A stretch of 64,000 bases of DNA from Pontederia crassipes. Taxonomy: Eukaryota > Streptophyta > Magnoliopsida > Commelinales > Pontederiaceae. A program made the translations under genes and the position numbers. The notes under the pieces are model-generated. The model ran no database searches. It saw only the letters and a program-made list of their open reading frames with translations, and was not told the origin of the DNA. How positions within the stretch are numbered: position 1 is the stretch's first letter; every line of letters starts with the position of its first letter. The DNA is taken from positions 73,988,139 through 74,052,138 of the forward strand of contig CM060196.1 in the NCBI GenBank assembly GCA_030549335.1, written 5' to 3'. This document shows, piece by piece, positions 34,391 through 62,561 of the stretch.

Positions 34391-37300
34391 ATGCTTCGTG
34401 TCCTAACGAGGACGAGATCGGCTACCGCGGCCGCACCTTGCCTCCTCTCCGCCAATACCTTCCCCGGTGCCATTCGATGCTTCTCCTCTCGCCGCGATTT
34501 CGATGCCGCATCCATCGCCGACAGCGCCTCCTCCGCCCTTGCGCGCGGCGCTGGGACCGGACTCTACGGCTTCGACGCCCTCAAGACGCCCAAGGGCTTC
34601 CGACGTTTCGTCGACGAAGCCATTGAGAGGTCTTCACGTCGTTTCCTGCCAATTCGCCTTAATACTGCGCATTATGGAGACGGTTTGCCTTCTAGTTGGC
34701 TTCGATCGCCTTATCTTGTGCTCTTTTTTCAGGTCGGCAGAGCTCGTTTCTTACATATCTCAGCTGCCCCCTTCCGAGGAGGTCATCCGGGCCATGGACG
34801 AAATTTCCGACACTGTACACATCTCCCTGACATCTTTTTCTTCGTTCTTAAGTTTCTAGATTTTCTTGGTGCAAGAGCGAGAGGAGATTGAGACATTTCT
34901 ATCTTTTAGGTGTGCTCTGTTATTGATTCTGCGGAACTGTGTCGAAACACGCACCCTGACAGGTGATTGTCAGTGCTTCTCATTTGTGTTACTGTTTATT
35001 TACAATGGTTGTTTTACTCACAGCTTTGCGATTACTTATCAGGGAGTATGTAGATGAGGCAAACTGTGCTGCTATGAGGATGCATGAGCATATTCATGTG
35101 AGTCAAATATAACTGTGAAGATGACGTGTTATCATACTTCTCATGATTGTGTGCATTTTTTTGGTATATAACTATAGCTGAAATCTCAACAACAACAACA
35201 ACAAAGCCTTAGAGGTCGGCTACATGGATCATACGACGCCATTCCGCTCTATTAGTAACCAAACCTTATATTCGTTGATCCATATTCGTTGATCCATGTT
35301 CATAAGATTCGACAGGATTTTACGCTAGCCGTCGGGGCCTAACACAACCCTCCTCCTTCATCCGGGCTTGGGACCAGCTATAAAATATAGGCGGAGTTAG
35401 CTGAAATCTCATAAGTAAAAAATGAAACTTATAAATTGAGGTTTTGTCAATTTTCAAGGTGACAGAAAAACTTATTCTCAAACGAAAATGAACCTTATAA
35501 AGTGAGGTATGAGGGCGTTGCAAGTTTGAACGCGACTTCACTTTGCATTTAGTTTCAATGTGTATGGTTTGACATTTAGTTCTGTGACGCAGGCTGGGTT
35601 AACCCGATATCTGGATTTGGTAGTTTAGTTATCGATTATTATACCTTTCAAAAAGATAGTTACCGACTATTATTTTTTTCCAATGCAGTTTTATATTCTG
35701 TGAACATGATAATCTATAAGATCCTTTTTTTTCTTCTCCAAAGGGGTATAGTTACATCATGTTTGCAATATGTCAGTGTATTATCTATTTTTCTGCAACA
35801 TAAAGGATATTTCAAGTTGATAAGTGGTTAGACTATACTAATGAAATTTATCAAAATTTTCTGTTAATTACGATCCTTTAGGTTTATACCTTCATAGGAT
35901 TTCCTACAGTTTATTGCCTTACAGTTAGACCAGTAGCTGTCACTCATGCAACTTTCTTCTTCTTTTTTTTTGAGAATCCAAAGGATGACAAACTACTTAG
36001 TTCGATATTACAAGTAGACATTGTACAAATAAAATAAAAGGAACACACAGGTACAAAATGTAACACAACCTTAATTCTATATTAAAGGTAAACAATGTAC
36101 AAGTAAAAAAAGAAAGGGATTGCACAAGTACAAATGGTAACACATCTCATACTGTGTCGTCCATACCCAATGTGATGTAGAATATTCACTCTATATCATA
36201 TGGAGGCCAAAAGAATGGTGCTGTTTCACTGGAGTTGGAGAGCCCACAGAACACATGCCTGCATTTCTCATACAACTTTACATCTGTTGCTGTGTTGCAT
36301 CTTCCATTTGTTCTCACTTAAAAATGTAAATTATTTATCTGACATGTCATTGCTGATAATATTTTGCCATGATAGTTTTTTAAAATAATCTGGAGTCCGA
36401 TTAAAAGAGGGAGAGGGAGGCCAAGGCGGACACTTGGCGAACTAATAGAGCAAGATCTATTGGTGAATAATATACCGAAAGGTTTGGTTACTAATAGAGC
36501 GGAATGGCGTCGTATGATCCATGTAGCCGACCCCACCTAGTGGGATAAGGCTTTGTTGTTGTTGTTGTTGTTGTTGTTTGTTGTTGATAGTTTTTTAAAA
36601 CTTTAACTATCGGTTATTCTAACATTTTATGGAAACAATCCCATGCACAATTTACCTCTTTGTTTTTGGCATTGTGGTCATGGACGTAGATTTTATCTCA
36701 ATCAGTGATAGAAATGAGTGATTCATTTTTATGAGGTGTAAGAAAGGAGCTTCTAATATGCTTAGAATAAGTCGGTCCATTTTTGTCTCTTGCTAATAAG
36801 CTTTTGAAATTGACAAATTATTAGACTCCAAGAGTTTACAAAGAATGTAACATTTCTTTTGTAAAAAAAAAGAGAATGTAAAATTTCTACTTGGATTTTA
36901 AGCAGTTGTGAGATGCCATACTAATTGATTTTTGCACTTATAGTTTATAGTCAGAGTGATTATTTTTTGGATAGTTGGTGTATCTATCTTTACCACAATA
37001 CACATACACACACATATATATGTATATATGAGGAGGGATTTCACCAATATATTCGTAAGAATGATAATCACGATTATGAAATAAGGATTCCAATTTGCTT
37101 GCATTGTGGTTTAAATATACATACACACACATATATATGTATATACACACACATATATAAGAAGCTGCAGCCCGAGCGGGTATTGTTATAGAGGAGAAAA
37201 ATTGGCCATCATTTTTCCCCATCATTCATCATGATATTGCGGGCGAGATCCCAATTCATTTGCAGAGATTGCAGTACTTTTCCTTTGCATCATTGTTAGG

Positions 37301-40300
37301 TATTAATGCTTAATTACTCCTGTTAATTTCCCATTTACATTTGTCTGATTTTCTTTCCTAAAAAAAAAGAATAAATATTCCCATTTTCAATGACGATCAA
37401 ATATGCTCAGATTTTGTTATCATGAGAAAATGGATCTATGTACAGGCATACGGTTGAAAATTGATGCTTGTACAAAGGGCGTAACTGATTTGCAAGTAGC
37501 ATTGAATTTCCTTCACATGATAGTTTGACATACATTTTTTTTAGAGGGAAAAGGATGGCCACCAGGTTGTGTGGTTGTCATCCAGTTTGGCCTACATTTT
37601 GAGTTTTACAGCAAGAAAGTTTTCTTGAAAAAGTATGATTTTAATTCTGGCTGGAAAAGGATTTGTCTAGTGGATTTCTGGTTTGGGGCTGAGGCTGATA
37701 TTTTAAGGTTAACAGTTGTAGAAATAGTCACCTTTCTTTTTTCCATTTTTGTGTAACAATTCTGTCAGCCTTTCAATATCTGTCAAAGAAGGGTGGTACC
37801 CTCATGGGCATGCCTCTTTTGGATCCACTTGCTGGACTTCTTGTGTCAGGCATGATATGGAAAGCTGGGTTTGAAACTGGCTATCGTAGGTAACAATTCA
37901 TGTGCTTTAAGTTCAGATAGATGCATAGACTCAAGTATTGATCCTCAAATTTTTTGTTCGATGCAATTCTTATGCTGTATTGCAAATTCCTTGTGTAATG
38001 TTCTTGCTGATCTTCTTTCCTTTTTGCTAAGGCATATCTCAGTTTTTCCATGTACATCGATCAAGTTAATTTGGCATCATGCTCTACTTTTGTTATCATT
38101 GTTTCATCTCACATTAGGAAACTACTTATATTTTTTTATTCTGTGTTTCATATCTCTAACAACTCCGCCTATATTTTATAGCCGGTCCCAAGCCCGGATA
38201 AAGGAAGAGGGTTGTGTTAGGCCCCGACAGCCAGCATAAAATCCTGTCGAATCTTATGAACATGGATCAACGAATAAGAGCGGAATGGCGTCGTATGATC
38301 CATGTAGCCGACCCCACCTAGTGGGATAAGGCTTTGTTGTTGTTGTTGTTTGTTGTTTGTGGTTTTAGTGTTTCCTATTATATGATTTTTCTTCCTAGAA
38401 GTTTCTTCTTATGGGGGTCCATAAAACTAACATGCATTCTCTTTTCGTATTTGATATTCCTAATTTCCTTGCAGTTTCTTAATACCAATTGCAATTTATA
38501 TACTGCAATATTAAGAGCCCAAGATGAAGGTGTGCTGCATACTGCTGAAGCTCAAAGAGCTGCACATGCTTTGCAAGTTGATTTTGAGAAGGGAGGAATC
38601 CATCTTCCTGCAGGTAATGAATCATGGTTGCTGTATCTCTTATTAATATTTTGTTTGTTCCTAACCTTATCTTTTTTGTCCTCAGAGAAATTGGAGCAAG
38701 TCAATAAATTGAATGTGGCAATTGCTCAACTGGGTGCAAAGTATGTATACAATTTTTTTCTCCTAAAAAAGTTCTTTTTTTTTTTTTGAGAAATGTATGT
38801 AAATTCTCAGTCTGCATCTTTTTCATTAGTTATTGTTGTTGGTGCTTATGAATTTGCGTTTTGCTACCATAGCTTCACAATTGATGAATTATGTGCCAAC
38901 AGAGGAAATAAAGCCCAACAAAAATACTTAACATAACAAAGGCGGGAAAAGTCCTGTATAACAAATAAAAACAATCATTCTGGTCAAGATAGTGATTTTG
39001 ATTTTTCTATTAGTGAGGTCTAGACATTAGTAGGATGACAACAAACATTATTTTTGGTACTGGAAAGGGCTTGACATCCTCTAGAGAGGAGTTAAACAGC
39101 ACTGAGTGATTAGCCTTCGTCATCAGCACTAAGTGCCTTCGAAATAGGAGTTAATAAGTTTGACTATGTGACAGACAAGCTGCATTCATGGGTACTTGTT
39201 AGGGTGTAAATGTACAATGTTAATTTCTTATGTCTCTATTCTGTGTTCTTAAATTCTAGACAAGCTGTCATCTTTCATTTCAAATAAGGATTTCTTGCAT
39301 GTCAAGAATCTTGTGCCCATTGCCATTCACGTATTTTGCAGTTGGATAGTTCTAATCCTTATAATTCAATGAGCTTAAGAATATCACAAGACATCACTAG
39401 AAACAAATTTTTATGATATAAAATTAATACAACAACAACAACAACAAAGCCTTATCCCACTAGGTGGGGTCGGCTACATGGATCATACGACTTGATCCAT
39501 GTTCATGAGATTCGACAAAGTAAAAACATGCTTTTTACTTTGTCATTTGTTTCCTTACCAACTTATCACTCATATGTAACCTGCTTCTATGGCTGGCTTG
39601 CTTTGGTCTAGTCTTCCTTTTACCCTAGAACGGTATGTAGCTCGCTTTAAAGATTTTGGTGTACATGGCAACAACTCGTTCTTAAATACATAATTACATG
39701 GTAAAAGTTTTCCAAGTCACTTTCTTGAAGAACATGACCACAAAAGTACTGTTGTTACTTTTTGCCAGGTATCTTTGGTTTTTCGATAGTTAGCTTCTAG
39801 AAGTTTGGATGACTACTCAAATTATGTAGCGACCCTTTCCCCAAAAAACTTCCAGAAGTTCATAACTTTGTGGTTATGACTTTCTGTTTTTTTCAATGTT
39901 AATTTGCTTCTCTATAATTTGATACAAATGGTAAAGATATACAAATTTGTGGAGTTCATTACTTTTGTAAAACTTTTCACTACCAAACTGAACATATCTA
40001 TCAAGTACCTGCTATACTAGAAACCAGAAGACCTATTCTTAGATATTAGCTTATCTTTACTGTTTTTATCAGGTTCAGTGAGAATATTATGATTGATCCA
40101 GGTTGCGTGGATATATTTCCAGCTTCACGAATACCAAGTCATTTGCACCATCATTTTAGGCCAATTTACCGACTAATTCCCAATGGATCTGGCATGTCTC
40201 GAATTTCACATGAAGGGAATAAGGAAAAAGGCTTGCGAATAAGTACTGATTCAAGTACTATGTCCATGGTTTTGAAATGGGTATCAGATGCTGAGGTGAT

Positions 40301-43300
40301 GACTTGTTTTTCTTTGGAAGTAATCATTGATTCACCTGATCTGATTTATTGAAGAAGTTTTTTTAGAGCAAAATTTATTGAAGAAGTCTGTTGAGTGGAA
40401 CCATGAAAATTTACAGGTTAGGAAGCAAATGTACGTAATGGGAAATTCTGTTCCACGGGCTAATCTTGCTGTTCTGGATGATCTTATATGTGCTCGTCAT
40501 GAGCTTGCACAGGTATTTGTTTCAGCTTTCTTTCATGATTTCTACCCAAAATATGAAAAAGATTGAGCAGCTTTTTATTCTACATGATTTCAAAGAAAAG
40601 CATGAATTTTTTTTTGAGAAGAAAAAGGATGACTACCAAATTGTGTGGTTGTCATTCAGGTATATATATATCTGGAAACTGAAGAGATGTACAATTGTGT
40701 GCTCTCGAAGAGAGAGCAGCAAAAATGAAAAAAATTATATCAGCCAAAACCCCACTCCCGAAGCAAAAATAGAGTGTGGTGTACAATATGCTCTATCTGA
40801 CATCGCTCCCCACAAAAAATCACTCGGTTCGCTGAAGCCATATCGCCCAGGAATCTGCCAAAAAAATCGCCACCGGTGCCCGCCATCTCTGACCCTGTCG
40901 GGCCAAACCACGAAGAAGCTGCCACAACGCTGTAGGATCAGAGGGAAAAGGGACCACAAAGGGAATCCGATGCCAGATGCCGCGTGATGTCGCACATGTA
41001 AAGAATAGATGGCCAATGTCCTCCGCCTCACCACAGAGGACGCATGTCGTGTCACTGTGGTGTGCCCACCTCACCCTATATGTCCTGGTGAGAAGTCTAT
41101 CCCGCCGCATGAGCCAAGCAAAAATCTTGACTTTCAGCGGGACACGGGATCTCCAAATAAGTCGACAATCAAATCTGAAATCCTCCGACGTCGTCATGTC
41201 AGGAAGAAAGCGGATGTAGAGACTCCGTGCCGACCAGGCCTTCGATAGCCAAACCCAACCATCATGTCTGGACTGGTCGGGACGGAAGGAGGCAATCCTC
41301 CGGTGAAGAGCAAGAAACTCCATGTAACGCTGATTAGAGAGGGCTGATATGAAAGGTGGGGCCAGGAGCCGGAGCCCGGGCCACCGGGCGTAGACCAGGT
41401 CTCCGCCACCGTCGCGTCAGGATGCACCGCCAGAGCATACAATCGGGGGAAGGCCTCCGCAAATGAGTCCCCGGGGGACCAGCCATGCCGCCAAAAGGAG
41501 AAGTCCGCTTCGGAGCCAAGAGAGGGGGTCATGAGTGAACGCACCCTCGGAATCAGTGCCGCCCCACCACGCCAAAATGATGAAGCTCTGGGAGGCAGCA
41601 TAATCCTCGAATCCCAAAAAAGGTCTCGTCCATAGCATGTGAAGAAGACTGACTGCCATAATCCATCCTCGGGTCCCATGATCCGCCTGACCCACCGAGC
41701 TAGGAGAGCCCAATTGATGTAGCGGAGGTCCAAACCCTTAGTCCGCCCTAAGAGGTGGGGCGGCAAACACTGCTCCAAGTAACAAGGTGGACTCCGCGCC
41801 GATCAGGACCGCCACCCTGCCAAAAGAATCTGCTCAAAGAATCCATACATCTGATAATCTGGGCAGGTGCTTTGAGAACAGTCATATAACATATAGTACA
41901 TTGGGAGTGCCGAGAGAACAGATCGGAGGACAAGACGGCCACCCCGGTATAGGAGACGTGAACTCCAACCCTGGAGCCTCTGCTCCATGTGCTCTAGAAT
42001 TGGAGTTCAACCCCGGGATGTGATGTGGCGGTCGGAGAGAGGTAGGCCCAGATATGTGATCGGCAGTGTACCAATAGGAGTGAAGCTTGGCCGCGCATCT
42101 GTCAGCAACCTCGGAAACCATGCCAAAAGGGATGAATGAAGACTTGGCATGGTTTATCTGAAGACCCATCGTGGCGCCGAATAACTCAACGAGAATGGCC
42201 ACACGTCGAGCTTCCTCCTCCGAACCCTCGATGAAAAACACCGTGTCATTAGCATATTGGAGGAGAGGAACCAAGCCCTCGGCGAAGCCGCTGAAAAGGC
42301 CCGCCGCGCAGGACATCTGAGTGCCTCTGGCCAGCGCATCAACTGCCAGGACGAAGAGCATGGGGGCCAGTAGGCAGCCCTGGCGGACTCCACACTGAGG
42401 CTGAATCCAGTCTCCCAAAATCGCCCCATTGGCCAAGACCGAGAAAGAAGCGGTGGTAACACATCGCTTCATCCAGGCGATCCAAGTCTCCGGGAACCCT
42501 CTGACCTGCAAACAATGCCAAAGGAAAGGCCATGAGACAGTGTCATGCTTTGGAGAAGTCGACCTTCCATAGGAAGGCCTGGCGGCTAGTCCTCCTCCAA
42601 TGAGCTATGATCTCCGAGGCCATGGTATAGCTGTCAGTGATGACCCGCTCCTGAATGAAAGCCGTCTGTGCAGGGTGGATCAAAACTGGCAAGACCTCCC
42701 AAAGACGATTCGCCAATACCCGAGCCACTAAAAGATAGATGGCGATGGATAAGGCGATGGGTCGGAAGTCCTCCACTCGGTCAGCCGGGGTCCGCTTCGG
42801 GAGTAAGAAGAGGAGGAACCGGTTGAGGCGATTAAATCCCCGGTTCTCGCTAGTGAACTCCCGAATGACCGCCAGGACGTTCTCACGCACTATTGTCCAA
42901 AACTCTCGATAGAAGAAAATCGGGAAGCCATCAAGGCCTGGCGTGGCGTCACCGTTGAGGTCCTAGAGGGCCTCGGTGACCTCTTCAGAGATGGCCTGCA
43001 CAAGCAAAGAGAGTGAGACGAGGAATATCCCCTAGGGCCCAACGCCATGGGCTCGGAGACTGTCGTCGGGTCGACGAATGGAAGTAGGAGGTGATGGCCT
43101 CTCCAATGCTATGCTGGCTAGTGAAACGCTGGCCCTGCACCTCAATCTGGTCGATCCTGTTCGCTCTTCTTCGAGAGCTCGCATATAGGTGAAAAAATCG
43201 AGTGTTAGCATCTCCCTCCTGTAGCCAGGTCTGTCGGGAGCGCTGCCTCCATTGGATCTCCACGATCCTATCCTCAAGCTGGATGATCTCCTGAGCCCGT

Positions 43301-46300
43301 CTGCGCTCCAACTCCGTATCAGTAAGTGGGTGGGAGTCCTCTCGCCAGTCTATCCGGGCAATCCTCTCGAGGGCATCGGTCCGACGTTTCTCCATGTCCT
43401 CCTGAATCTGGTGTCTATGTCTGCAGAGGAAGGACCGAAGGCTGGCTAGGCATGATGCTGTGTTTGTGGCCTCCACTCTCTGCCATTGCTCCATCACTAA
43501 TTGACGTCTTCGAGTAGCCAGGAGCGCTCGAAGCGGAAGAGAGAGCGCTGCCTTTGACTATTGTCGGAGCGCCACAACGGGGGGTGTGGTCCGAGAACGG
43601 TCGGTCCATCGCCTGAACCACGGCTAGCCGGTGAGTCTCCGATCCAAGGAAGCGATCAATCCTCGATCTTGTGGTCGGGGTCGCAGTACTCCGCCACGTG
43701 AATCTGCAATTGGAGGGTGGAAAATCGATCAGTGACTCCGAGTCGATGAAATCTCTGAACTCCTTTGCACCAGCATCTCTTCCCCGTCGTCTGATGGGAC
43801 GATCATCCATGTCAAGAGTGACATTGAAGTCTCGCCAATCAGCCATTGTGTGTCCGGGAGGTGGGCACGTGCCCCTCTGAGCTCCTCCCACATGGTGCCA
43901 CGCAAGGATGCTGAACACGGCCCATAGACACATGAGATAAGATAGTTGCCACACCCTCGTAGGTGAGCCATCATTGAGAAGCGGGCCATCCAAGAGTTCA
44001 CCAAGGAGAAGAGATCCTCCCTCCAGCCAATAATGCATCCACCCGACTGCCCCACCGCATGAAGGGAGAGATGCCCTATCATCCTCGGGCCCCCAATCTG
44101 TGTTCATATCCCAGAACTACAGTGAGGAGGGCCATATCCACCTCCCACTTCATGAGATAGCGGCCCAGGGTCCGACCGACGCCTCCCTGCGACTCTTAGG
44201 CCTCTGACATTCCATGTGAGCACCTTCATGGGGCCACTGGAGTGTTCACCTATGTTTCCGAACTGTTGCTGGACGCCGAGCGCCTCCTTTGGCTGTGGGC
44301 AAGGAGCCTCCGAAATGGTCGATGTAGACCCATCCTAATTGCCATTCCGGCCTTTGGCGTGTCTGGCGACGGGTATGGCGAATGCCAGCAGCCTCAGCCA
44401 CCAGAAGAACCTCCTCATCTGCCCTCCCGTTGAGGAGGGGTTCCCCGGCGATCACATGCTGGTCGGCGATGACTGGCGGAGGAGGTGTCCCCTCGGCGGC
44501 ATCAGGCGATAGAGGCATCGTTTCGACCTGCGTCGTCTCAGGTTGCCGAGGTGGAGGAGGCCTGTCAACGTGGACCGGGTGGCGGCGTTGATAACGGCGG
44601 GGGGCGGAGTCGAGCTGCCGGCGGGGGGCGGAGTCGAGGTGCCGGCGGGGAGCATCGCAGACGCTGGATGGCGGTCGGCGACAGAGGTGGGCTTGGAGGG
44701 CAGCGTGAGCCGGGTCTGGGACGACAGAGATGGGGTCAAGGTTGGGACATGGGTGTGGTGTTGGCGGTGGATTTGAGGTGGCGATGTTGCTCGGTCACTA
44801 AAGGATTGCCGGCGGCCGGATCAGGTCGGGCTTGGAGGAGAAGGTGAGTGAAGTGGGGCTGGGTCGTGTTCGAGGTCGTTGGCGGGTGCGCGCTGGCTCG
44901 GATCGGACGTGGGTATGGGCGGAGTCAGAGGAAGGTGAGATTAGGTCGGAGGGGGATTCGTGTTGCAGGGGGGTTGAGTCCGCTAGCTGGATCCGGGTGA
45001 TCCAGGCTCGCGGGCAGCGGGTTGGCGGGTTTGTAACGGGTTCGGAATTTTAAAAGGGGTATGGGTGTCACGTGTTGCCCTCGCGTGCTCTGTCGCGCCA
45101 GACTGGCCTGCAGCTGCAGGTGTCCTTGCTGCTGACTGTCGCGGCGACGGAGGGTGTCGGCCGGCAACCACCTCCGCCCACGACGCCATGTTGCCGGGGT
45201 ATTGCAGCCGGAGGATGAAACTGTCAGTCCCGGCGCAGAGGATGACTGACTGTGGGAGGGCGCCACCCTCACGTATCTCCACCACGACAAACGTGGTAGA
45301 CAGATCCGGCGACCCGAGGGGGGGAAGAACTACCGAAATAGGGTCTTTCTTTTTGAGAACAAAAGCATGAAAGATATCGTGTTGGAGGTGTATTTGAGAA
45401 AATCTTCAGAGATAAGGAACTTCACCCATATTACAACTTTGTCCTCATGTCTTTTATCTGCACGCCCAACAAGTAATATCACTCAGTGGAAATAGGTTAA
45501 AAGGCAGAGCAATTTTTTGTTTGAGGAGAGAAAGGATGACCACTCGATGTTGTCATCCATATATACATATACATATACATATACATGTACATGTACATGT
45601 ACATGTACATGTAGTACATGTACATGTAGTACATGTACATGTACATGTACTACATGTACATGTACATGTACTACATGTACATGTACATATACATATACAT
45701 GTACATATACATGTACTACATGTACATGTACATATACATATACATGTACATATACATGTACATATACTTATGTATAGCTATAAAATGAGGATCATGTGCA
45801 AGTGTGTGCTCTCATGAAGAAACCGAATGGACGTCTTGTGACACTCAGCTGCCAAACCTCTCGTGATATTGGGTACTCAAAAGAAGAAGTGAGTGGTGTC
45901 CTCCTCCGTCTCGCCGCTTAAGATGCATGATGTGTCAGAATGAGCTGCCCGCCTTATATTCTCTGGTGAGAAGCTTGTTGAGCCCCCAAGTGACCTTTCC
46001 TCCAGCCCCGTGATCCGCCCCAGCCACTGGACAAGAAGAGTCCAGTCGGCACAGCAAAATCCGCATGATCATAGAGAAACGTTGTCGCTCCCTCGAGGAG
46101 TTGGACCCCTGCTCATGGCCGAAGTCCTCCTATGGCCGGTGCGCGAATGTGCTAGCAGCCGCTGAAGTGGCCGCCACAACCAAGGCGCCCTCGTCATCAA
46201 ATCTTCCGGCAAGGAGACAGTTGTCCTGTGCTGACTGCTCCTCATCGGTGAGTCCATCTCGTGGTGATAATCGAGTGGAGCTGCTTGCCATAAACTGCTG

Positions 46301-49300
46301 AAAGCTTACATCACTATTTTTTGCTGATTTTGCATCACTCACCCGCTGTTACTTTTGAGGAGAAAAAGGATGACCACCAGGGTTGTGATTATCATCCATC
46401 TATATATATATCTTGCTCAATCAATCACTGACTCGCTGTTATTATCCCACTGTCAGTGTGATGAGGACAGAATCTGGGGGACCAGGTGAGGAAGGAGTGG
46501 AAGATAGAAATATGGGACAAGGGATGGGAACACTGGAGGGAACAGATTCATGGAGCAAGAGATAAAAGGCACGGGAATTGGGGATAACCTTGTGTATGAA
46601 GGGGAGAGAGAGGAAAGGGAATGGGTGGTCAAAAGTCAGAATGCATGATTATTTCTGTGAGAGGCATAAATTATAACAAAAGTTCTTAATTTTTTTTACC
46701 TTCATAATTCTATTTTCGCAATCATATTATGTTTCAATTTTTTTTTTGAGGAGTGTTTCAATTTACTTTTTCCGATTTATTATTTGTGATTTCAATAATT
46801 CTTATCACAGATTTAGTCCATTGAACTGATGTTGATTCCATTATGCCAACATGACCAATTGTGTCTCCAACTCCCCATTTTAATGCTTCTTTGGTCAATT
46901 CACTAGGTTTTTTTATCCTAAAAAAATCACTAGGTTTCTAAGCAAAACTTATAGAAATTGCTGGAATTTGATGGTCTATATATTAGTCATATTTATCATC
47001 TTCAATAAGTAATAAATATCCCACTAATATGTGTATATATATTTAATTTAAACTTAAGAGAGAAACTGTATGCAGCTATGTGTGTCATGACCGCTTGAAA
47101 AAACTATCACAAGCATGTAAATATTTGGATTGACAGAATACATGCTTACTACAAATGTAACTTGCTTTACATTACCTAAACCCTAAAACCTAAATCCTAA
47201 ATCCTATAAAGCAGTGTCCATCCACATCCTCAATCAGCCCGCTTTCTTTAGCATTTTTGTTTGCATATCTTCACCTTCAATTAGTATTTCGACAGAAAAT
47301 GAAAGGCTACTCAAAGGATGTCTTCATCCTAAACTATCTAAAAGAAAGAACTCATGGTAGATATGTATTTACTTTAGGTTTTGTCTGTTACTCTTTAATG
47401 AAGAATGTTGGATACAGATAATGGATTGCAAGTCCTATTCTGAGTTTGCAGTTCGCTCAAATGTTGCAGCTTCACCTGATGTTGTCATGTCTTTCCTGTT
47501 AGACATGAGTAGAACTGTCAGATCCAAGGCTGATAAGGTGTGGAATGATGAGTTTTTTTTATCCTTTGTATAGAGGATCTTGATTTTGCTTTTGCCTTTT
47601 CCTGTTGAGGACTTTCTTGATTTTGAGTTTCTTCTGTTATAGGAGTTTGAAACTGTACGACAATTTAAAAGGAAAGCCTTGAATCAAAACTTTGCAGATC
47701 TAGATCCATGGGATGAAAGTTATTTCACAGCAATGATGACATCTTCTGAATATGATTTGGATTCATCAGTAAGTGGTTCAGGATCAATACTTCTTTTTGA
47801 ATAAAACTTCTTTGTTGTGACGTAGAAATTGTAATAATTATAGTCATCAAGAATCCATCAATTTCTTCCATCATCATTGTTCCTTTCTATAAAATATCAT
47901 CACAATTTTTATGCTTGGATTCAGACATTCATCTTGTCCTTAAATTCATTTTGTGCATGGCAACAGGTTATTGCATCATATTTTTCGTTACGACAGTGCC
48001 TTGAGGGGTTAAAAATTCTAGTTGAGTCATTATTTGGCGCGACATTCCATCAAATCTCAGTACAATCTGGAGAAACTTGGCATCCGGATGTTATAAAGTT
48101 GTCTCTTCATCATCCTTGTGAGGTACAACTGCAAACACATATGAATGACTTCTGGGATGCATCTATTTCAAAACATTCTTTTACTGGTTTCCGTGGATTG
48201 ATTTGCTTTATCTTATGAATTATGAAGCAATTCAAGATCACTCTCAACAGAAAATATGAAGTGGCCCAAGATACTTGAACTTTGTAATGACAGTTGTAAC
48301 TTGGACATTAGCAAGAGGCGCACTTTGAACACAACTAATATTTTTCTCTGATATTCTGATCACCCTTGCCCGGATAAAGGAGGAGGGTTGTGTTAGGCCC
48401 CGACAGCCAACATAAAATCATGTCGAATCTTATGAACATGGATCAACGAATATATTGTGTTAATGCTAGGTCGTTACCCGTAAGTAACGCGCTGTACAGC
48501 TCGGGTACAGTGATAAGAGAGCAAGAGCCGCTGCATCCTCGCCTGAATGCAGTGTTAAATGAGCAAGGGCTACCGCACTCTAATGGACGGAGGCGGTTAA
48601 AGAAGCTAGTTCATGAGACTAAGGTCAGATTAGGTTCTTGGAACATTGGGACGTTGAATGGGAAGCGTCTCGAGGTGGCACAAGTAATGGACCAGCGTAA
48701 GATTAGTATCTTATGCTTGCAAGAAACTAGATGGGTAGGAGAGGGAAGTAAAGAGATTAGGTTAAATGGTTCCAAACTTTGGTACACAGGTAAGGTAAAT
48801 GGAAGGAATGGTGTTGGTATTATCGCGGATGCAGAATGGAGGAAGAATGTTGTGGAAGTTAAAAGGATTGATGATCGAATCATATCCGTGAAAGTAATTG
48901 TTGGAAAGGAGACTATGAACATTATTAGTGCATATGCACCCCAAGTAGGGGCAGAATCACATCTCAAGGAGAAGTTTTGGGCAGATATGGAGGGTTTGAT
49001 TGAAAGTATACCAACAACCGAGAAAGTTTATATTGGGGGAGACCTTAATGGACATGTTGGTAAAGAGGCAGGACCACATGCAAGGGTTCATGGTGGTTTT
49101 GGTTTTGGGGAGTTGAATGAGGAAGGACAAACTATTATTGATTTTTCTTTAGCATACGACCTTAAGATTATCAACACTTGTTTTAGGAAGAGAGAGGAAC
49201 ATTTAATCACATACAAAAGTGGAACTCATAGGTCTCAAATCGATTTTTTCTTGATAAGAAATACGGATAAAAGACGTTGCACTAATTGCAAAGTAATTCC

Positions 49301-52300
49301 TGGGCATGGGGTGACTACACAACATAGATTGTTAGTTCTTGATATGCAAATAAAATGTATAAAACCAAAATCCCGAACAGTTTTTGATCGAAAAATCAAG
49401 TGGTGGCAGTTAAAGGGGGAGAAGCGAGAGACTTTTAGAAGTAAGTTATTAGAGGAAAGTGTGTGGGAGTTAGAAGGAGATGCTAGTATCATGTGGAAGA
49501 ATGTGGCAAAAAAGGTTGAAATGGTTGCTAAAGCCATTTTAGGAGAATCAAAAGGTTTTGGACCACGAGATAAGGAGACTTGGTGGTGGAATGAGGAGGT
49601 CCAAGAAAAGGTGCGTAATAAGAAGAATTGTTTCAAGGCGATACACTTGGACAATAGTTCTGACAATTGGGAAAAGTATCGTTTGGCGAAAAGGGAGGCT
49701 AAGAAGGCAGTTAGTGATGCTCGTGCTAAAGCATACGAGGGGTTTTATAAGGAGTTAGGGACAAAGGCGGGTGAACAAAGGATTTACAAGATTGCAAGGA
49801 ACAAAGAGAAGGAGTCGAGAGATTTGGATCAAGTAAGATGCATAAAAAATGAAGTTGGCAAGGTTTTAGTTACTGAAGGAGATATTAAGAACAGATGGGA
49901 AGAGTATTTCTATAAGCTATTTAATGATGGATGTGAAGGTTCGCGTTGTGATTTGGAGGACTTGACAGTTAGCGAATGTGAGCTTAATAGGTCATTTTAT
50001 CGTAGAATTAGAGTCTCGGAGGTTAGCGAAGCTCTTAAGAAAATGGAGAATGGTAAAGCCGTTGGACCGGATGGTATACCGATTGAAGTTTGGAAATGTT
50101 TAGGAGAAAAAGGTGTGTTGTGGTTATGTAAACTATTTAATGAGATTTTACGGTCGAAAAAGATGCCTGATGATTGGAGATTAAGTACATTAGTTCCTAT
50201 TTACAAAAATAAAGGGGATATTCAGAATTGTGCAAATTATAGAGGGATTAAACTTATGAGTCACACTATGAAATTATGGGAAAAAGTGATTGAGCATAGA
50301 TTGAGAATGGAGACTAGTATTTCTGAGAGACAATTTGGGTTCATGCCAGGAAGATCCACTACAGAGGCGATTTATTTACTAAGGGGGATGATGGAGAAGT
50401 ACCGAAGTAGGAGAAGAGACTTACATATGACTTTCATTGACTTAGAGAAGGCGTATGATCGGGTACCAAGGGATGTACTTTGGAAAGCCTTGCAAAAGAA
50501 GAGGGTGAATGTTGCCTACATTAAGGTAATACAAGATATGTACGATGGGGCATTGACTAGGGTTAGGACACTCGGAGGTGAGACAAATGAATTTCCTATA
50601 GGAATTGGCCTACATCAAGGATCAGCTTTAAGCCCGTATCTATTTAACTTAGTTATCGATGCTATAACCGAGAGTATCACAGAGGAGGTACCTAAGTGCA
50701 TGCTATTTGCGGATGATATAGTACTTTTAGCGGATTCAAGAGAAGAGATTAATACAAAATTGGAAATATGGAGAAATACGTTGGAGTCAAAGGGTTTTCG
50801 TTTAAGTAGGAATAAAACAGAATATATGCATAGCAATTTCACAAATAAACAACTTAGAGACGATTTGAAAGTTAGGTTAGGGGAGGATATAATTCCTCAA
50901 GTGACAAAGTTTAAATATTTAGGATCAATTGTAAGACAAGATGGTGAGATTGATGACGATGTTAATCATAGAATTCAAGCTGGTTGGTGTAAGTGGAGGA
51001 AAGCCACTGGAGTTCTTTGTGATAGAAAGGTACCCAATAAAGTTAAAGGAAAATTCTATCGTACTGCTATAAGGCCAGCAGTGTTATATGGTAGTGAATG
51101 TTGGGCTATGAAGGGACAACATGAACGTAAAGTGGGGGTAGCCGAAATGAGGATGTTGAGATGGATGTGTGGTCATACAAGATTAGATAAGATTAGGAAT
51201 GACCATATACGTGAACGAGTCGGAGTGGCTCCTATTAGTGAGAAAATGGTAGAGAATCGTTTGAGATGGTTTGGTCATGTTCAGAGAAGACCATTAGATG
51301 CGCCAGTAAGAAGAGTAGATCAAATAATCTGGAGTCCGATTAAAAGAGGGAGAGGGAGGCCAAGGCGGACACTTGGCGAACTAATAGAGCAAGATCTATT
51401 GGTGAATAATATACCGAAAGGTTTGGTTACTAATAGAGCGGAATGGCGTCGTATGATCCATGTAGCCGACCCCACCTAGTGGGATAAGGCTTTGTTGTTG
51501 TTGTTGTTGTTGTATTCTGATCACCCTTGCTATTTTCTATTGTCTAATATTCTAGGACTTGTTTTTTCGTTCTCTAAACAAGTAATCTAGGAAGTTATCG
51601 CTAAAACAAAACTAATCTAGGAAGTGATGATCTAAATGCAAATTTTCACGGTTCATAGGATTGCTAAACTTCCAAATTCTTGGAATGTGGAGAACGAGAT
51701 GCATCATGAAACTGTTTGACACTCTGTTTGCCTCTTTTCCTAATTAATAAAGAACTTGTTTTTTCCTTCTCTTTTGCCTCGTCATGCACAAACTTTCTTG
51801 GTGAGGATTTTGTTGAAAAAGTAGATTTTTTTTGAGGGAAAAGAGCATACTATTATATGAACAATGATTCTCATTTCCTTTTCTATCCTCAAAGAAAAAA
51901 AATATAAATAATTCTGTATAACTGGGAAGGTGTTTTTTTCTCTCTTGTGATATGTGTCAATTGTATTGTACCTTTGATAGCCAATCTTGACGTCAGAGTT
52001 TCTGATATTTTTATATTTATGGCTTACTGTGAAATATATTGTGTTTTCTTTTCAGTGAAAGAAGTATATCATTCAACCTTACAAATATTGAAATGATTAT
52101 TGCTACAATAGTTAATTAGCTTGTGGTACCCCTGGTAACGCTAATTAATATTCCCTTTTTTCTAATCTTTTAAGTTTATTATGTTGGCCTTTTCTTTTTT
52201 GAAAATGAAAAGGAAGACCACCACACTTGATTCGTCATCCACTTTGTATTAAAGCTATAAATGTGAACCATTTACAAGTGTGTATGAGAGAGATATCTAT

Positions 52301-55300
52301 GTTATTCACATAACACTGCTCACCCTCGAAAAGAATGGTTCTGCAGCTTCTGCTGGAGCCATATGGCACATGCGACCAGCACTACTTCCCTCATAGAAGC
52401 CTTCAAACATGTTCCCCTGTGCACAAGTGTTCACAATGATCTCTATAGTGTGTCCGGTGTGGTGGCATTAATTCCGCCCAGTGCATCCGTCGCCAGATTG
52501 ATTGTATTATAATTATCAGTGTAGAGCATAGGGAAGCTTACAAGCTTGATTGTATTATGAGAAAGTATACAAGGAGAAAAATAATTTGTCAATGCCAATG
52601 GCATCACATTCCCTTTTTACCTGGCACAATTTTATTATTATTTTTCGTAAGTGAATTTTGGTTGCACTTTGCATTGCTCATTATTGAACTCTGGTCACAC
52701 AGAAGTTAAGAGACATTTTGCTTGAGCATTGACTTTATTTCATTGTACACTGAATTGAAAAAAGAAAAACTCTTCAGGTAGATCATGCAAAAACCTTCCA
52801 TAATTTTTGTTTGTTTATTAGTTACAAATTTGCATTATCATTTCACTGAATCTTTCAGCTTTCTAGAATGAAGGTATCTTCTCTCTAAAAAAAAAAGGTG
52901 GTTATCGACTTCTATGTGATTGTGCGTGATATATGCAATTTCCATGAGTTGAAAATGCATTGTTGAATATTATGCAATTTCCATGCTTTGTATTATTTCA
53001 CTTCAAACTCCGCCTATGTTTTATAGCCGGTCCCAAGCTCGGATAAAGGAGGAGGGTTGTGTTAGGCCTCGACAGTCAGCGTAAAATCCTGTCGAATCTC
53101 ATGAATATGGATCAACGAGGCGTCGTATGATCCATGTAGCCGACCCCACCTAGTGGGATAAGGCTTTGTTATTGTTGTTGCATCCGTCGCCAGATTGACG
53201 GTGCCTGATGTGATGGAGTTAAAGTTGTCAAGATCTTGATTTAGATATTAAGATTTTACGATTTTACGATCTTACTACTTCTTAGTGATCTCAGATCTTA
53301 TCTTGAGAATCTTATGTGTAAGATCTTAATACGATTTTAATTTTGTTCATGCGATCTTACAATCTTATCCGATCCTATACGATCTCATATGATTAATATA
53401 ATTATTTAAATATTAATTAAAAATATATTTATGATAATAAGAATTAATTTAGATAAAGTTTAATACATTTTCTTCATTTTTAATATGTTTTGATATAATT
53501 TGACTTAAGAATCAGTAAAAAAAGACTTAATAGGATGTAAGTTAATATTTAAATGCGGAAAATTTATGAAATATATATATATTTATTAATAGGTAGGATT
53601 TTACGATCTTCGATGTAATGACCCTCCTTCGATCTTATGTAAGATCCCGATTTTGACAACCTTGGATGGAGCACTCATGGAAAAGGTGGTTCTCCGATGA
53701 TCCACACACTAGGAGTCCATCTCACCCTTTAAGCCCACTTCAATACTTTACCACGTCGCATAAGTCAAACAAAGATCTTGATCTTAAAGGGCACCTTGAC
53801 CTCCAAATATGGCAACAAGTAGCTAGAAGTCGTCAGATTCCGAGCTGATGAGCAGCAAATGCATGTCAACAACCCGAGCACAGAAACAACCGGAGGGCCA
53901 CACCCAACCACCCCCTTGACCCACTTCTAAAATCTTGTAATTGTGAATACATGGGACTTTCAGTGCCACTTAGGCACTTATAACTATTAAGATCTGTTTA
54001 CATTCTTAATCTAGCTAAGTATTGAATTATGATATTTTCATCTCTAAGAAAGTTGATTGATTCTTTCAAAAACGAAAGCTGATTGATTATATCATTACTG
54101 TCTATTTGATTTTCCTGCTGACTTAGTATGATTTTTCTGTTTTTATCTGTGCATTTTGTGCTTCGTACATTCCAAGTCCCGCTCTTATTTGTGAAAAAAA
54201 CAGGGCGATTTGGGATTCCTCTATCTTGATCTTTATGCTAGGAAGGGGAAGTATCCAGGCTGTGCTCATTTTGCAGTTAGAGGTGGACGGAGGTTATCTG
54301 AGACAGAGTACCAACTTCCAGTACGCACTAACTTTATTGGTGCTATTTACATGCATTTTCTATGTTATTTTACAGCACTGCTAAAAGATACCAAGAGAGC
54401 AACTTTCTTTGTGTTTGACAATTGTATTATTCTTGCATAATTCTGAAAATTTCTTTTAAACTCATTATGACAAGTCGAATCTTCGGCGATTTACATCTTT
54501 TTTTCTGTTTCTCGGTATCTTGACTTCCTAGAAACTATCATCTGTTTGTCTTGCCCCTTAAAAGCAAATCATCTGATTGTCTTAAATAACATATTATCTT
54601 TGGTGTTGGGTCAGCTGATCGCCATGACATTTTAGTTACTTGTCTGCATATATCTGTTTTGAGAAAAACTCATCTGTATGTATAACATCATCATTGATTA
54701 GACAGTACCAAAAAAAATTTTTCTCGAATGTCATCTATATTTATATTGCTCTTGTTTGTCACATATCACACTCAAATGTTACTCATTTTTCTTTATGAGT
54801 GTTGGTATGTAGGATGCTTGCTGACTCCCAACTAGTTCAGTACGCGAGTGCAAGTGTCAATTTTTACTTCCTCCCAACAAATTTGCTTCCTGGAATTCAA
54901 TCACATGGCCTCTGATGGAGTTTTAAGACTATTTTAATCAAGAACTTGTTTGTAATCGACGTAACTTCTTTCATATGTCACTCTTGGTCCATAATTTCTA
55001 TACTAGTACAGCAACCATTCTCTTTTAACCCTTGAGTCACCAATTCCTCATGCCACAAACTATGAGTATTTTAATTACCACTCCAAAATTTTTAATGCCA
55101 CTTCTTTTAGAACAGTTCTACTCATTGGCATTAATAATCAATCTTTTGACGATATATAAAATATATAATATAATGAAAATACAGTCAAAAGAAATAAGGT
55201 TACTCTTGTTTCTTTTACCATTAGTTTTTGCATCTCAATTTGAGACCCCTTGCCGGCTGCATAGAGTTCCATAACATAGTACTCTATAGTCCTGTGTTCT

Positions 55301-58300
55301 GTCTTCCAACATCCTCGAGTGGCATAAAGCTACTGAAGGCAAGCCAATCTGAGCAAGGATCTGAGAGAAATGTCATCAAGAAATTGCTTACTTCTTGATT
55401 TGCCTTGCTCTCTTTGATGCCACAGAGCCTTTGAATGAATGCACTAATCTGATCTTTGTTTTTGTGTACAAGTTATGACTAATTAGATATAACTTCTAAC
55501 ATTAACAAAAAAGGCCTTGCTGTACAGGTTGTCGCTTTAGTTTGCAACTTTGCAGGATCAAGTGCATCAAGTTCGTGTTTAAGCCACTCAGATCTGGAAA
55601 CCCTTTTTCATGAGTTTGGCCATGCGCTTCATTCTCTCCTTTCTAGAACGGTAACAAATTTCTGCTTAATGATTTGTTAACTGTTTTTTCCTTGTATGTG
55701 TGCATTAAAATTATTTTGCTATATGTTCTCAGGAGTATCAGCACTTCTCAGGTACTAGAGTTGTTCTTGATATAGCTGAGATACCTTCTAACCTTTTTGA
55801 GTAAGTTCTTGTTTTTTGCCTGGTAGATCATTCGATAGCTTCTGATGTTTTTCATCTGGATTAGAATATTGCTAGAGTACAATGATATAAATGTATTCAT
55901 TAATATGTACAAATTTCTTCTATGTTTCTATATTTTCTTATAAGCCGACCCCACCTAGTGGGATAAGGCTTTGTTGTTGTTGTTGTTCTATATTTTCCTA
56001 TAGTTTGTCACATTGAGATCTAGCTAACTAACCTGCATGAACCTATGAAGAGATGAACTCATATATTCAAGCATTAAAGACAGTAAAGCATTAAAGAGAT
56101 AAACTCACATATTCACAAGGTTTAGGCACAGCCTGCCCCTCTGAATTAGTTAACGCTGTGACAACTCAAGGTTCAAACCAAGGAAAGGAATAAAATTGAC
56201 ATGTTTTAATCATTGCAAAGGAAGAAATTTATGTCCTTCTGAACACAGCATACACACATGCATGGATCATTTTCTCTTGAATCCCATTTTTACTGGAGTA
56301 CTTTATTTGATTTCATTTAGACACCATGCTTGCTTTTTGTTTCGAAATCTTGCCCCATTCTAGCAATGTATAAACCCCTTTTCATCTGCAGTATGTGATA
56401 AGATACCACTTTGTATTAGTTAGTGGCTGGTTAATTAAGTTGTGGGTAGTTAGAAGTTGTATGAGTCAGTGGCTGGTCAAGAAAGTAGCAGGTAGTTATA
56501 TTTGTATTTGCATGTTATAAATACATGCATGTAGGTAGTTATATTTGTATTTGCATGTTATAAATACATGCATGAGTTTTAGATTTAGGATAGCCTTGGA
56601 AAATGTGTTGATCAATTATGTAATTGGAGTTTCGTCCACTCCATACAAACTTATGGAGATTTGTCATATCGAATTGACAAGTTATTAGTAGTAATTGTGT
56701 TTAAGATTCGTGCACTTTTACTATTAATAATAGTTATCCCACTTTTAATCAGTCATTTGTAGTTGTATTTTCAGTTTGTAAGTGAAAGCTCATTTCATAA
56801 GAAGAAAAGCTGGAAGTTCATATTGGTTCAAAAGTTTATCTCTTGGCTCAAAGATGGAGTTAATCAAGTTTGGAGCCTTCAACTGCACCTGCAGAATATT
56901 ATTATTAATATTCTTTTCTCCGCCTTGAGGACAAGGCAAAATTTTAGGAGTGTACTGATAAGATACCACTTTGTATTAGTTAGTGATTGATAATTAAGTA
57001 GTGGGTAGTTAGAAGTTGTATGAGTTAGTGGCTGGTTAAGAAAGTAGTGGGTAGTTATATTTGTATTTGCATGTTATAAATACATGCATGGGTTTTAGTT
57101 TTAGGATAACTTTTGGAAATGTGTTTATCACTTATGTAATTGGAGTTTAGTCCACTCCACACGGATTTATGGAGTTTTGTCATCTCGAATTGACAAGTTA
57201 TTAGTAGTAATTGTATCAGTATGTATAAAAGAAATATGTGGGATGCATAATTTTTGAAAGGGGATGCATTTATGGCTTTACTGAGAAAGTATTAAAATGT
57301 ACCTGATGATTGTTATTGCAAATTGTAGAGGCAGATATCACTTTAGTTTTCAGAGCATAGTGGAGATCTCTTTTTTTTAGGGGAGAAAATTTGATTACGG
57401 ATATAGTGTAGTCATCCATGTATTTTATATTAGAAACAGCTAGCAATTGTTGTAAGAGATAGGAAACAAAAATGTAATTACCAGTATATCCTTCCCTAAA
57501 AAAAACAATATATCAAAACAAGAGTGTACATGAGAGGGAAATGAACTTCAAAGACAACAAGTGGCAGAACCCTATGCTGGCTTGAGTGCAATAGATGAGG
57601 TAGCCCAGTCCTGCTTCACCACCTTTGATATTCCTCAAGAATCCCCTTGAGGTGCTGAATGATATACAGTCACAACCAACTGCCTTCCAGACAGCCTTGC
57701 CTTTCTGCCATATCCTGGCAAAGGTTAAAATATTGGGACAGGTCTGTAGGGTGATTTCCTAGAAAAGATGGAAGTGCTTTGTCTAGAGAAAAAAATGTTA
57801 GTGTTGCCAGTCTGCATTATCCACATATAGTGCATATTGGTTAGCTGCCGATCGGGCACAAGGATATCGCTGAGTTCTGTTCTGTTTGGTTTCTTCTTGT
57901 CCCTTTATCAAACATATCTCAACTGTCATGAATTTGTTTGCCCCTCAAAAAAAAAAAAAAGGACAAAAAAAGAAAAAACACAATCCTCTACTGGTTGTGG
58001 AGCTTTTTTTCCTCAGTTGAGGGAATTGAATTGCCGAGTCTCGGATGTAGATTTTTTTCTTTGCAGACTCGGGATCTAGAGGGACCTGATATAAAAACAA
58101 TCCTTGGGCATTTCAAAATCCATATTTTCGTCCAATATCTTTTTTGAGTGAGATTATTAACACAAGCCTTATATTAGGTACTATGCATGGGATTATCGTG
58201 TTCTAAGGATGTTTGCTAGACATCACACCTCTGGTGATGTGATACCAGAAAAGTTGGTAAAAATGATGAATTGTGCACGGACCAAGTTTGCTGCAACGGA

Positions 58301-59950: not shown

Positions 59951-60829
59951 TAGAAGTATGCGTCACTCAAAGTTCCCCCCAAAGGAAAACCAATAGACGC
60001 CCAAAAGTTGGAGCACCTTCGGCAGTGCATTTATGTTATGGTTGAGGTGCAGCTGACTATGGAACATTGGATTGATCTCTTCCCCAATGGGAGAAACTAT
60101 ACTTCATCAATGGTGTATACTACCGTTCCTTTGTTTTGAGACTTACAGTTTAAACTAATTCATTGATGGAGCTGGAAGCTTTTTATCATATTTTTCTCTT
60201 GATGTTATACGTCGTGTTAAGAAAATTTGATGCAATGATTCATTTATTCATGCATTTCAGCTTCATCTGGACATTTGTATTGTACAAATATCATACAACT
60301 TCAAGCACAGAACTTTTTGGTAATCCTTGTGGCCATTATGAGATATCATATTTTACTCTTGTTTCTCATGTTCGGTGCCTTTCATTTTGTCATGTTTTGT
60401 AGCCAAGTACCGGACTTGCTCTCCTTTTCTTTTCCTTTATAAAAGAAACTGGACGAATTTGCTTCATTTCAATTTCATTGTGACTCGATGCGGTTTGATC
60501 TAGAACACTAGAGGCCATCTAATTGGGGAAGTTGATTCAAGTTTTCGAATGGCTTCGATCGGAAGTCATTATTTGGATCTTCCGGCTTCCCAATTGCATA
60601 CAGAGAGAGGATCTGTAGAATTCCATAACATACTTCCTCTTGCCTTAATTTTTTCAAATCTACATTAAATGCTTTCTCAGTTGGTCGCTTGCTTATGGTC
60701 TTTTTGAGTATTCAGATATAGTAACAAGCTAGCATTCACAAAATATTATTTGAAATGATTATCCAACTGAATTATCATTTTCTATTCTATCATCAAACTA
60801 TATTTTCCTGATTAATCTTTTACTTATGA
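59951..60829 (+). other. MIP 3' untranslated region and downstream DNA
   Basis: Follows the MIP stop codon. The first few hundred bases are presumably 3' UTR; I see no strong AATAAA and cannot fix the end. No other gene is visible. Confidence 0.5.
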
Positions 60830-60838
60830 TTATCTTAA

Positions 60839-61711
60839 AAATTTAATGCCCGTCCGTCCAAGTCGTACTCGGCGGACGGATTGTTTTGTCCACTTCGAGG
60901 CATGTAGAATGTGCGGTGATGGGAGGAATGGCGCAGAGATAGCCCACTTTGTGGAGTTCTACTGGCCGGTTCGTCGAGTTCTACCGGGGATGCATGCAGC
61001 GGGAGTTTTACTTTTTGCACTTTGGGGACGATGAGGCTAGCCAGAGGGAGGAAAGTTGCAGGGGACGACGGCAAGTGGACGCGACTCTAGGCGTCTCCGG
61101 TACCGACGATGGCAGCAACAGGAGGAGGTGCGGTCCGCACTGGGGGAGAACAAGGTGGTGGTGCACATCTCTGCCGGGAGCAATGGGGACGATGGGAGGA
61201 CGGATGTGGCCACGACGACACTAGAAGGGGCGGTGCTGGTGTATTACATGCCTGGCGGCGAGTGGAGCAGAGGGCCAGACCTATCGGCAGGGCTCCGACG
61301 GGTGGCACTCATCTATGTCGAGTGTTGACTTGGCCCACCCAAAAGCGTGCGGAGGAGTTGAGGTTGGTTGGGCTGCGAGCGCCGAATGCCAGTAGAGGGG
61401 TGATTGCCACACAAATTTTTTGTCGATTGTCCGTAGCGGAGGGGGAGCCCAAGTTCGTGCTGACGGCATTGTTTACTCACTAGGGCAGAACAGACATGGA
61501 GCTAATGGAGTAATGGGGTCACGGGGCTTCGTTTCTTCAAATGGCTCACGGGTGAATTGGCGGGGGCAAACATTGTGCAGCGTGACACGACATAGTGAAT
61601 TGGCTCCTTGACGTGCCTTCTCCCCGTCGATGCACGATCCCCATCCAATGGTGCGCGTCGGATGGAAGGATCATCTGCCCAGCACGACTTGGGCGGTCGT
61701 GCATTATATCC
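60839..61711. mobile_element. Pack-MULE-like Mutator element
   Basis: An 873-bp element with a perfect 9-bp duplication TTATCTTAA (60830-60838 and 61712-61720). Terminal inverted repeats of about 35 bp read AATGCCCGTCCGTCCAAGTC at the left and AATGCACGACCGCCCAAGTC at the right (reverse complement). The interior is sharply GC-rich against AT-rich flanks, as in Pack-MULEs that carry host gene pieces. The frames inside (for example 61109-61483) do not match a family I know, so the captured source is unidentified. No transposase. Confidence 0.8.
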
Positions 61712-61720
61712 TTATCTTAA

Positions 61721-62347
61721 TCGACGATAGAAGATTTGTTGAGATTCACCTTAATATTTTCTCTCTTTTATATTTAATTTAAAATGAATAAAATAAAAGA
61801 GAGAAAGCAACCATTTATGATCCCTCGTCGAGGTGAAGAGGAGGAAGAAACATGCATCACGAGAGAGGAGAGGGCGCCACCCCTCCCTCTCTCCCTAAAA
61901 GAAGGGGGCACACTTCACTCTCCCCCTCTCACCTATGTCGTGCTTGTGATATAGGAAAGAGGTGAAGAGCAGCGATCTGTCCAACCACCGTCACCCTACA
62001 TCTCTGACCATGGGTGCCAAAGAAGACAAAGAAAGGGGCGGTGTCTATTCTCAATTGTGCCCTCTTTTTAGTATTTTATGATTAATTTTAAAGTTGGCCT
62101 AGACAAGGGAGAAAATATTGATAAGAATATAACATTGTTATTTTAAACATAAATATTTTATAACCGACAAGGATAATCATAACTACAAAACTATAAAAGT
62201 TAATGTTCATCATTTTAAAAAAATAATGTTCAATGACCAAAATCAGAATGAGAATAGTGTCTCATTATCCCTTAAATGAGCAGATAACACTCAATCATCT
62301 CACAAAATTGTACTTGACATCACTTAACATGACTAACAAAAAATTAA
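61721..62347. other. Intergenic, no gene seen
   Basis: Mixed AT-rich and CT-rich DNA without a supported ORF or element. Confidence 0.5.
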
Positions 62348-62364
62348 GAATGACACCCACTAGA

Positions 62365-62547
62365 ACTCCGCCTATGTTTTATAGCCGGTCCCAAGCTCAG
62401 ATAAAGGAGGAGGGTTGTGTTAGGCCCCGACAGTCAGCGTAAAATCTTGTCGAATCTTATGAACATAGATCAACGAATCAGAATGGCGTCGTATGATCCA
62501 TGTAGTCGACCCCACCTAGTAGGATAAGGCTTTATTGTTGTTGTTGT
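62365..62547 (+). mobile_element. Miniature RTE derivative (183 bp)
   Basis: The 5' module (ACTCCGCC to ATCAACGAATC) is joined to the LINE tail at AGAATGGCGTCG, ending in (TTG)n. A 14-bp duplication TGACACCCACTAGA flanks it (62351-62364 and 62548-62561). The cleanest example of the miniature family here, and outside the MIP gene. Confidence 0.92.
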
Positions 62548-62561
62548 TGACACCCACTAGA

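Follow-up and report, generated by a model that had tools for sequence, protein, structure and literature searches.

The window analyzed here is a stretch of 64,000 nt from Pontederia crassipes (assembly GCA_030549335.1, contig CM060196.1, positions 73,988,139-74,052,138 of the forward strand). It contains five short elements, which we call minis, in which a 5' module is joined to the 3' tail of a long interspersed nuclear element (LINE) of the RTE type, approximately 3.1 kb in length. The minis lie at the positions given in an initial annotation of this DNA, and the copies at 35189 and 39430 are corrected here to the minus strand. The same annotation held that all five retain the LINE 5' end. 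Four of them (m35, m38, m53 and m62) carry the complete 5' module, whereas m39 is truncated at its 5' side and keeps only the last 26 nt.

35189-35398, minus strand: m35, complete 5' module, 14-nt repeat of the 5' arm of the stem described below, junction, and tail without its hairpin; 14-bp target-site duplication (TSD) TAGCTGAAATCTCA
38161-38354, plus strand: m38, complete 5' module and 3' tail
39430-39517, minus strand: m39, last 26 nt of the 5' module and 3' tail
53006-53180, plus strand: m53, complete 5' module and 3' tail
62364-62549, plus strand: m62, complete 5' module and 3' tail; 14-bp TSD TGACACCCACTAGA

Two of the five minis, m35 and m62, are flanked by TSDs of 14 bp. No clear TSD was found for m38, the best candidate being 11 bp long with one mismatch and not adjoining the element, and TSDs were looked for around m39 and m53 and none was found. 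The repeat in m35 is a 14-nt tandem repeat of ATGGATCAACGAAT, and the hairpin lacking from its tail is CCCACCTAGTGGG; since the flanking 14-bp TSD is perfect, this hairpin was probably lost during or after insertion. An alignment of the four complete modules with the LINE over 113 positions shows 16 variable columns and zero indels. The mini most similar to the LINE is m38, which differs from it at 3 of 82 positions of their common stretch.

The parent LINE and its other copies

The copy at 48368-51512 is the sole long LINE in the window. It and the other insertions of the family are as follows:

48368-51512, plus strand: RTE-type LINE copy without the first ~31 nt of the 5' module; (TTG)n end; 18-bp TSD TATTCTGATCACCCTTGC
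48390-51479, plus strand: uninterrupted LINE open reading frame (ORF) encoding endonuclease and reverse transcriptase (RT) domains; 1029 amino acids from GTG, the likely start codon being the ATG at 48432
13601-14404, plus strand: 5'-truncated LINE copy
36387-36586, plus strand: 5'-truncated LINE copy; 16-bp TSD
55941-55987, plus strand: tail-only insertion with 43 matching nt; 17-bp TSD with one mismatch

The ORF matches the Pfam families Exo_endo_phos (1.3e-7) and RVT_1 (1.8e-37). The element encodes its endonuclease and RT in a single ORF, a Pfam check that comprised two families gave no RNase H domain, and the element ends in (TTG)n; we therefore assign it to the RTE type by domain content and (TTG)n end rather than by an RT tree. 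According to the excerpted part of PMC3747384, (TTG)n or (TTGATG)n is the terminal repeat in seven of seven RTE families from flowering plants. The LINE and the minis share 84 nt of the 5' module at 97.6% identity, and because this LINE copy lacks the first ~31 nt, the description of the module as a LINE 5' end rests on those 84 nt. A tail query matched 89 of 89 nt in the LINE and in both truncated copies, and 43 of 43 nt in the tail-only insertion. As these additional copies are identical to the LINE over the matched nucleotides, the junctions of the minis do not mirror variation among these tails.

A predicted twister ribozyme at the head of the minis

The heads of all four complete minis match the type-P1 twister ribozyme (RF03160) with scores of 52.2-57.3 bits and E values of 1.4e-10 to 4e-9 (Rfam, 30-kb search), a feature of the 5' module that the initial annotation had missed:

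35344-35403, minus strand: twister-P1 match, head of m35 (53.5 bits, E 1.7e-9)
38156-38215, plus strand: twister-P1 match, head of m38 (57.3 bits, E 1.4e-10)
53001-53060, plus strand: twister-P1 match, head of m53 (52.2 bits, E 4e-9)
62359-62418, plus strand: twister-P1 match, head of m62 (52.6 bits, E 3.2e-9)

In the LINE copy, the missing part of the module is the one in which the twister would lie. There was no twister in window 1-34500 at E 0.05, the two Rfam matches in that region belonging to other families. In all four complete minis the predicted scissile bond is followed by the first A of AACTCCGCC, which is also nucleotide 1 of the element, as read from the alignment of m38 and from the hit ranges of the others. 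In m35 and m62 this A is common to the element and the TSD. The predicted mini twisters may self-cleave. Stem P1 is dispensable for twister cleavage according to the excerpt of PMC6154101, and RTE retrotransposons are mentioned in one sentence of PMC7761336 as bearing 'truncated but catalytically competent' twisters at their 5' ends.

With E values up to 5 allowed, Rfam gave no match to an RNA polymerase III (Pol III) head (tRNA, 5S, 7SL) in window 34000-64000, and the minis are not short interspersed nuclear elements (SINEs) under the strict definition, which includes a Pol III-derived head. Their anatomy is that of a short internally deleted element (SIDE), with the 5' end of the parent, a ribozyme match and the 3' end of the parent present and the middle missing, and we thus describe them as SIDE-like. 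The parental 3' end is kept and the internal part is missing in five of five minis; the parental 5' end is represented by the 84 shared nt, the very head being known from the minis alone; and the twister match is found in four of five.

Junctions between the 5' module and the tail

Alignment to the LINE revealed five junctions, all different, among the five minis. The last module position retained is 118 in m35, 116 in m38, 115 in m62, 113 in m53 and 110 in m39, and the tail is re-entered 95, 78, 72, 68 and 65 nt upstream of the LINE end, respectively (74 nt for m62 if one G-to-A change is accepted). The upstream cuts are therefore spread over 9 nt and the re-entry points over 31 nt, in agreement with the earlier description of a nearly fixed upstream point and a varied re-entry point, and every re-entry point lies 5' of TGATCCAT, as the model in that annotation predicts. 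The rank order of the minis is identical on both sides of the junction, one of 120 possible orders. The joins read ACGAATATA/AAGGTTTGG in m35, with 1 nt common to both sides; ACGAATA/AGAGCGG in m38; ACGAAT/CA/GAATGG in m62, with two unmatched nt, or perhaps CGGAATGG with one G-to-A change; ACGA/GGCGTCG in m53; and GGATCAA/GTCGTATG in m39.

These five copies cannot all derive from a single master whose junction was fixed. Were there five equally common junction types, five draws without repeat would have a chance of 0.038 (120/3125). Given the zero indels across 113 module positions, the junction is far more variable than its flanks. Microhomology-driven deletion was considered and rejected, the overlap at the joins being only 0-1 nt when the ambiguity of m38, with its 4-nt reading, is set aside. 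Separate deletions of DNA after insertion also appear implausible, as they would have to comprise five 2.9-kb deletions with a common end. The nearly fixed upstream point resembles a splice donor, and the minis might then be reverse transcripts of LINE RNA from which the 2.9 kb had been removed as an intron. However, where a donor GT would be expected the LINE reads ATATTG, and no two of the five copies agree on either side of the join, which makes splicing a most improbable origin.

A predicted panhandle joining the start and stop codon regions

The initial annotation had pointed to exact complementary 8-mers at the end of the 5' module and in the tail. The two are indeed complementary, but the complementarity is longer, reaching 14 bp with one bulged base (ACATGGATCA-ACGA / TCGTA-TGATCCATGT):

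48436-48449, plus strand: panhandle 5' arm, ACATGGATCAACGA, at the likely start codon (ATG 48432)
51449-51463, plus strand: panhandle 3' arm, TCGTATGATCCATGT, 13 nt before the stop codon

The suggestion that full-length RNA could form a panhandle is borne out by the computed fold of the LINE copy, in which the ten core pairs have probabilities of 0.93-1.0, although such folds ignore kinetics and ribosomes and this one stands without a shuffled control. The stem was tested in sequence for duplex energy, which was uninformative, then for run length, and then for gapped complementarity. Of 1000 Markov shuffles, 2 reached the gapped complementarity score; so did 0 of 41 other LINE pieces and 2 of 131 pieces of window 1-34000, a comparison region that itself includes a LINE tail with the 3' arm at 14347. 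Measured from the loop side of the stem, the upstream cuts fall between -3 and +5 nt and the re-entry points between 1 and 31 nt.

In computed folds of the five minis the stem becomes a local hairpin, and the fold of the whole of m53 has a z of -1.97 relative to 200 shuffles. The 5' arm of m62 is mutated (ATAGATCA). Two further rearrangements, the tandem repeat of the 5' arm and the loss of the CCCACCTAGTGGG tail hairpin in m35, also lie at stem sequences.

The minis retain three conserved parts, namely the twister, start region and tail hairpin, and their boundaries coincide with the ends of these. Such a pattern could result from selection if templates were switched at many places and only products with all essential 5' and 3' sequence were mobilized, the stem being either incidental or itself essential. 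A minimum requirement of this kind leaves unexplained that no more than 5 nt are kept past the 5' arm in all five copies, and we consider selection an improbable explanation of the junctions.

Related sequences in other records

No further copies of the mini or LINE family were found in the viral contigs, genome contigs, plasmids and phages that were searched; the collection searches otherwise gave group II intron RTs and other weak matches. A contig of a Breoghania metagenome-assembled genome (L001, 76-2822) carries a distant eukaryote-like RTE, 54% identical in amino acids, that also has a twister match (63.9 bits) at its 5' end; its presence in this contig is probably contamination. Compared by eye only, GGCGTAAAA in L001 and AGCGTAAAA in m35, m53 and m62 occupy a comparable place past the twister. 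A small stem around the AGCGTAAAA block is present in the minimum-energy folds of m35 and m53 and absent from those of m38 and m62.

A plasmid record named Alicyclobacillus fastidiosus (L003, NZ_CP104070.1) contains an IncFIA replicon, catA1 and, at locus 19001-20671, a plant-type RTE whose tail ends in (TTG)n. The record looks like a plant bacterial artificial chromosome clone filed as a bacterial plasmid. Its RTE also has the tail hairpin, and the record gave no Rfam match at E 0.05. In a viral contig (L002), matches to twister (2812-2874, 70.5 bits) and twister-sister (5163-5234, 39.2 bits) lie within 2.5 kb of one another, both above their gathering scores. Elsewhere in the window, 45526-45815 gave dozens of sub-threshold matches to microRNA families and other Rfam entries on both strands, and is probably low-complexity sequence.

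Origin of the minis

We tentatively propose that the minis are SIDE-like, twister-headed elements that arise repeatedly from LINE RNA at the 14-bp panhandle, by a jump on a broken panhandle. Transcripts would probably read through from host promoters, and the twister would cut them at nucleotide 1 of the element, so that every complete copy would bring along its own signal for 5' processing. Recognition of the tail hairpin and the (TTG)n end by the LINE protein would then lead to insertion of the copy by target-primed reverse transcription (TPRT). The starts at the predicted ribozyme site, the tail hairpin (also seen in L003), the (TTG)n end and the TSDs of two of the five minis fit twister processing and insertion by the LINE machinery, and we infer both ribozyme activity and mobilization by the LINE.

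In LINE RNA, the 14-bp panhandle between the start-codon and stop-codon regions would hold the two ends together, and the 2.9-kb loop would be broken or trimmed towards the stem. The LINE RT may then run off the trimmed 3' fragment and jump end to end onto the trimmed 5' fragment. Alternatively, the two fragments might be ligated first, RNA ligation across the stem giving the same products. With the loop trimmed and the stem held, the junctions would fall at varying points of the loop and leave the stem intact, and trimming would shift both cut points together, as is seen. Template jumps by the R2 RT, both in vitro and in vivo, are described in the excerpt of PMC3414825.

The end-to-end jump appears to fit better than the literal strand transfer across the stem that had originally been suggested. 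Transfer across an intact stem is doubtful because an RT starting from the 3' end would unwind the stem before reaching the re-entry points, and because cDNA of the 3' arm would have the same sense as the 5' arm and so could not anneal to it. A broken panhandle would avoid both difficulties, since the stem holds two fragments and the enzyme runs off the end of one. The accompanying claim, that new minis are created recurrently rather than from a single master, draws support from the five different junctions; the substitutions of m53 and m62 and the nested series of junctions would also fit one lineage.

Such a lineage could have begun with one founder that was formed by internal deletion and spread, its hairpin loop being shortened repeatedly in sublineages. 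The five junctions form one nested series, and the minis with common substitutions, three between m53 and m62 and one between m39 and m53, are those with the shorter loops. The D. willistoni R2 SIDE copies (~70 reads) in the excerpt of PMC3414825 have one structure and less than 3% divergence. A single founder would, however, need at least four later loop deletions, yet the modules of the four complete copies show no indel, and the loop would have to be much more deletion-prone than the modules around it. In addition, one of the longer loops belongs to m38, the mini nearest to the LINE in sequence. A deletion that removes a loop but retains its stem is of an unusual type, which also counts against one founder. 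We regard descent from one founder as a serious though somewhat less likely alternative, and tentatively favor repeated founding at the panhandle mouth, which, like the jump on a broken panhandle, we infer.

Several observations nevertheless weigh against repeated founding from a twister-headed, panhandle-forming RNA. The sample is five copies, the nested order of their junctions also fits loop shortening, and the common substitutions mean that some minis may descend from one mini. The m38 join can be read differently, with a 4-nt overlap (AATA) and one extra A, which would upset the rank order. The duplex-energy test of the stem gave no signal (730 of 1000 shuffles were at least as low), and an exact run of 10 nt was reached in 55 of 2000 shuffles, which is mildly unusual only. 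The 3' arm is not kept in L003, another plant-type RTE, whose 5' end is missing. All four twister scores are below the curated gathering score of 67.2, and no Rfam match in the window attains a gathering score. At the position preceding the cut the model has U; m35 alone has the corresponding T, against C in m38, A in m53 and G in m62. Stem P1 is not consistently formed, as its 5' strand would be host flank that is different in each copy, and one P1 pair in the m38 alignment is non-standard. In m35 the conserved UAAA carries a change, and stem changes occur in other copies. Finally, the authors of the R2 SIDE study, in the excerpt of PMC3414825, considered DNA recombination a likelier origin of R2 SIDEs than a template jump.

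A broader version of the proposal, in which twister-processed, uncapped LINE RNA with a start-to-stop panhandle keeps producing minis, most of them first-generation jump products with no master, seems rather unlikely to us. The role of such a panhandle may lie in cap-independent translation or in template recognition. Should new junctions be made each time, non-autonomous elements could be a steady by-product of the LINE RNA fold, and not rare accidents followed by amplification; the junction cloud would be an in vivo record of template jumps by an RT; and a plant mini-retroelement would be tied to the twister ribozyme, with a contact between the 5' and 3' regions of the RNA predicted.

Comparison with known systems

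No published twister-headed RTE mini was recognized among the titles and abstract beginnings listed by a literature search, with bioRxiv outside its scope, the sole related sentence being that of PMC7761336. The tail sequence, searched as text, had no match in a literature text search. As far as these searches go, plant twister-headed minis and a junction cloud at a start-to-stop panhandle appear to be new.

The comparisons with known elements draw on excerpts of the papers cited. Closest in design are the R2 SIDEs of Drosophila (PMC3414825), which like the minis have a self-cleaving ribozyme at the 5' end, the 3' end of the parent and an internal deletion, and for which use of the parental TPRT machinery is proposed. 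Their ribozyme is similar to that of hepatitis delta virus and their target is ribosomal DNA, whereas the minis have a predicted twister and lie at dispersed sites. R2 SIDE copies also share one structure, in contrast to the minis, where five of five junctions differ. The truncated twisters of RTE retrotransposons (PMC7761336) resemble the mini heads in being P1-less and placed at an RTE 5' end, but are described for RTE retrotransposons rather than for internally deleted minis.

Among SINEs, the mammalian RTESINE1, MAR4, Bov-A2 and RTE1-N1_LA (PMC3747384) likewise combine a head and a tail from an RTE-type LINE. They differ from the minis in being mammalian, and the passages in question mention neither ribozymes nor junction variation. 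The tobacco TS SINE and its RTE partner (PMC3747384) share with the minis a plant host and an RTE-type tail ending in (TTG)n; an RTE head is not listed for TS in that source, whereas the head of the minis is LINE-derived. Plant retrozymes (PMC4918200) are, like the minis, small non-autonomous plant retrotransposons with self-cleaving ribozymes. Those ribozymes are hammerheads and the elements propagate through circular RNA, while the minis couple a predicted twister to a LINE tail.

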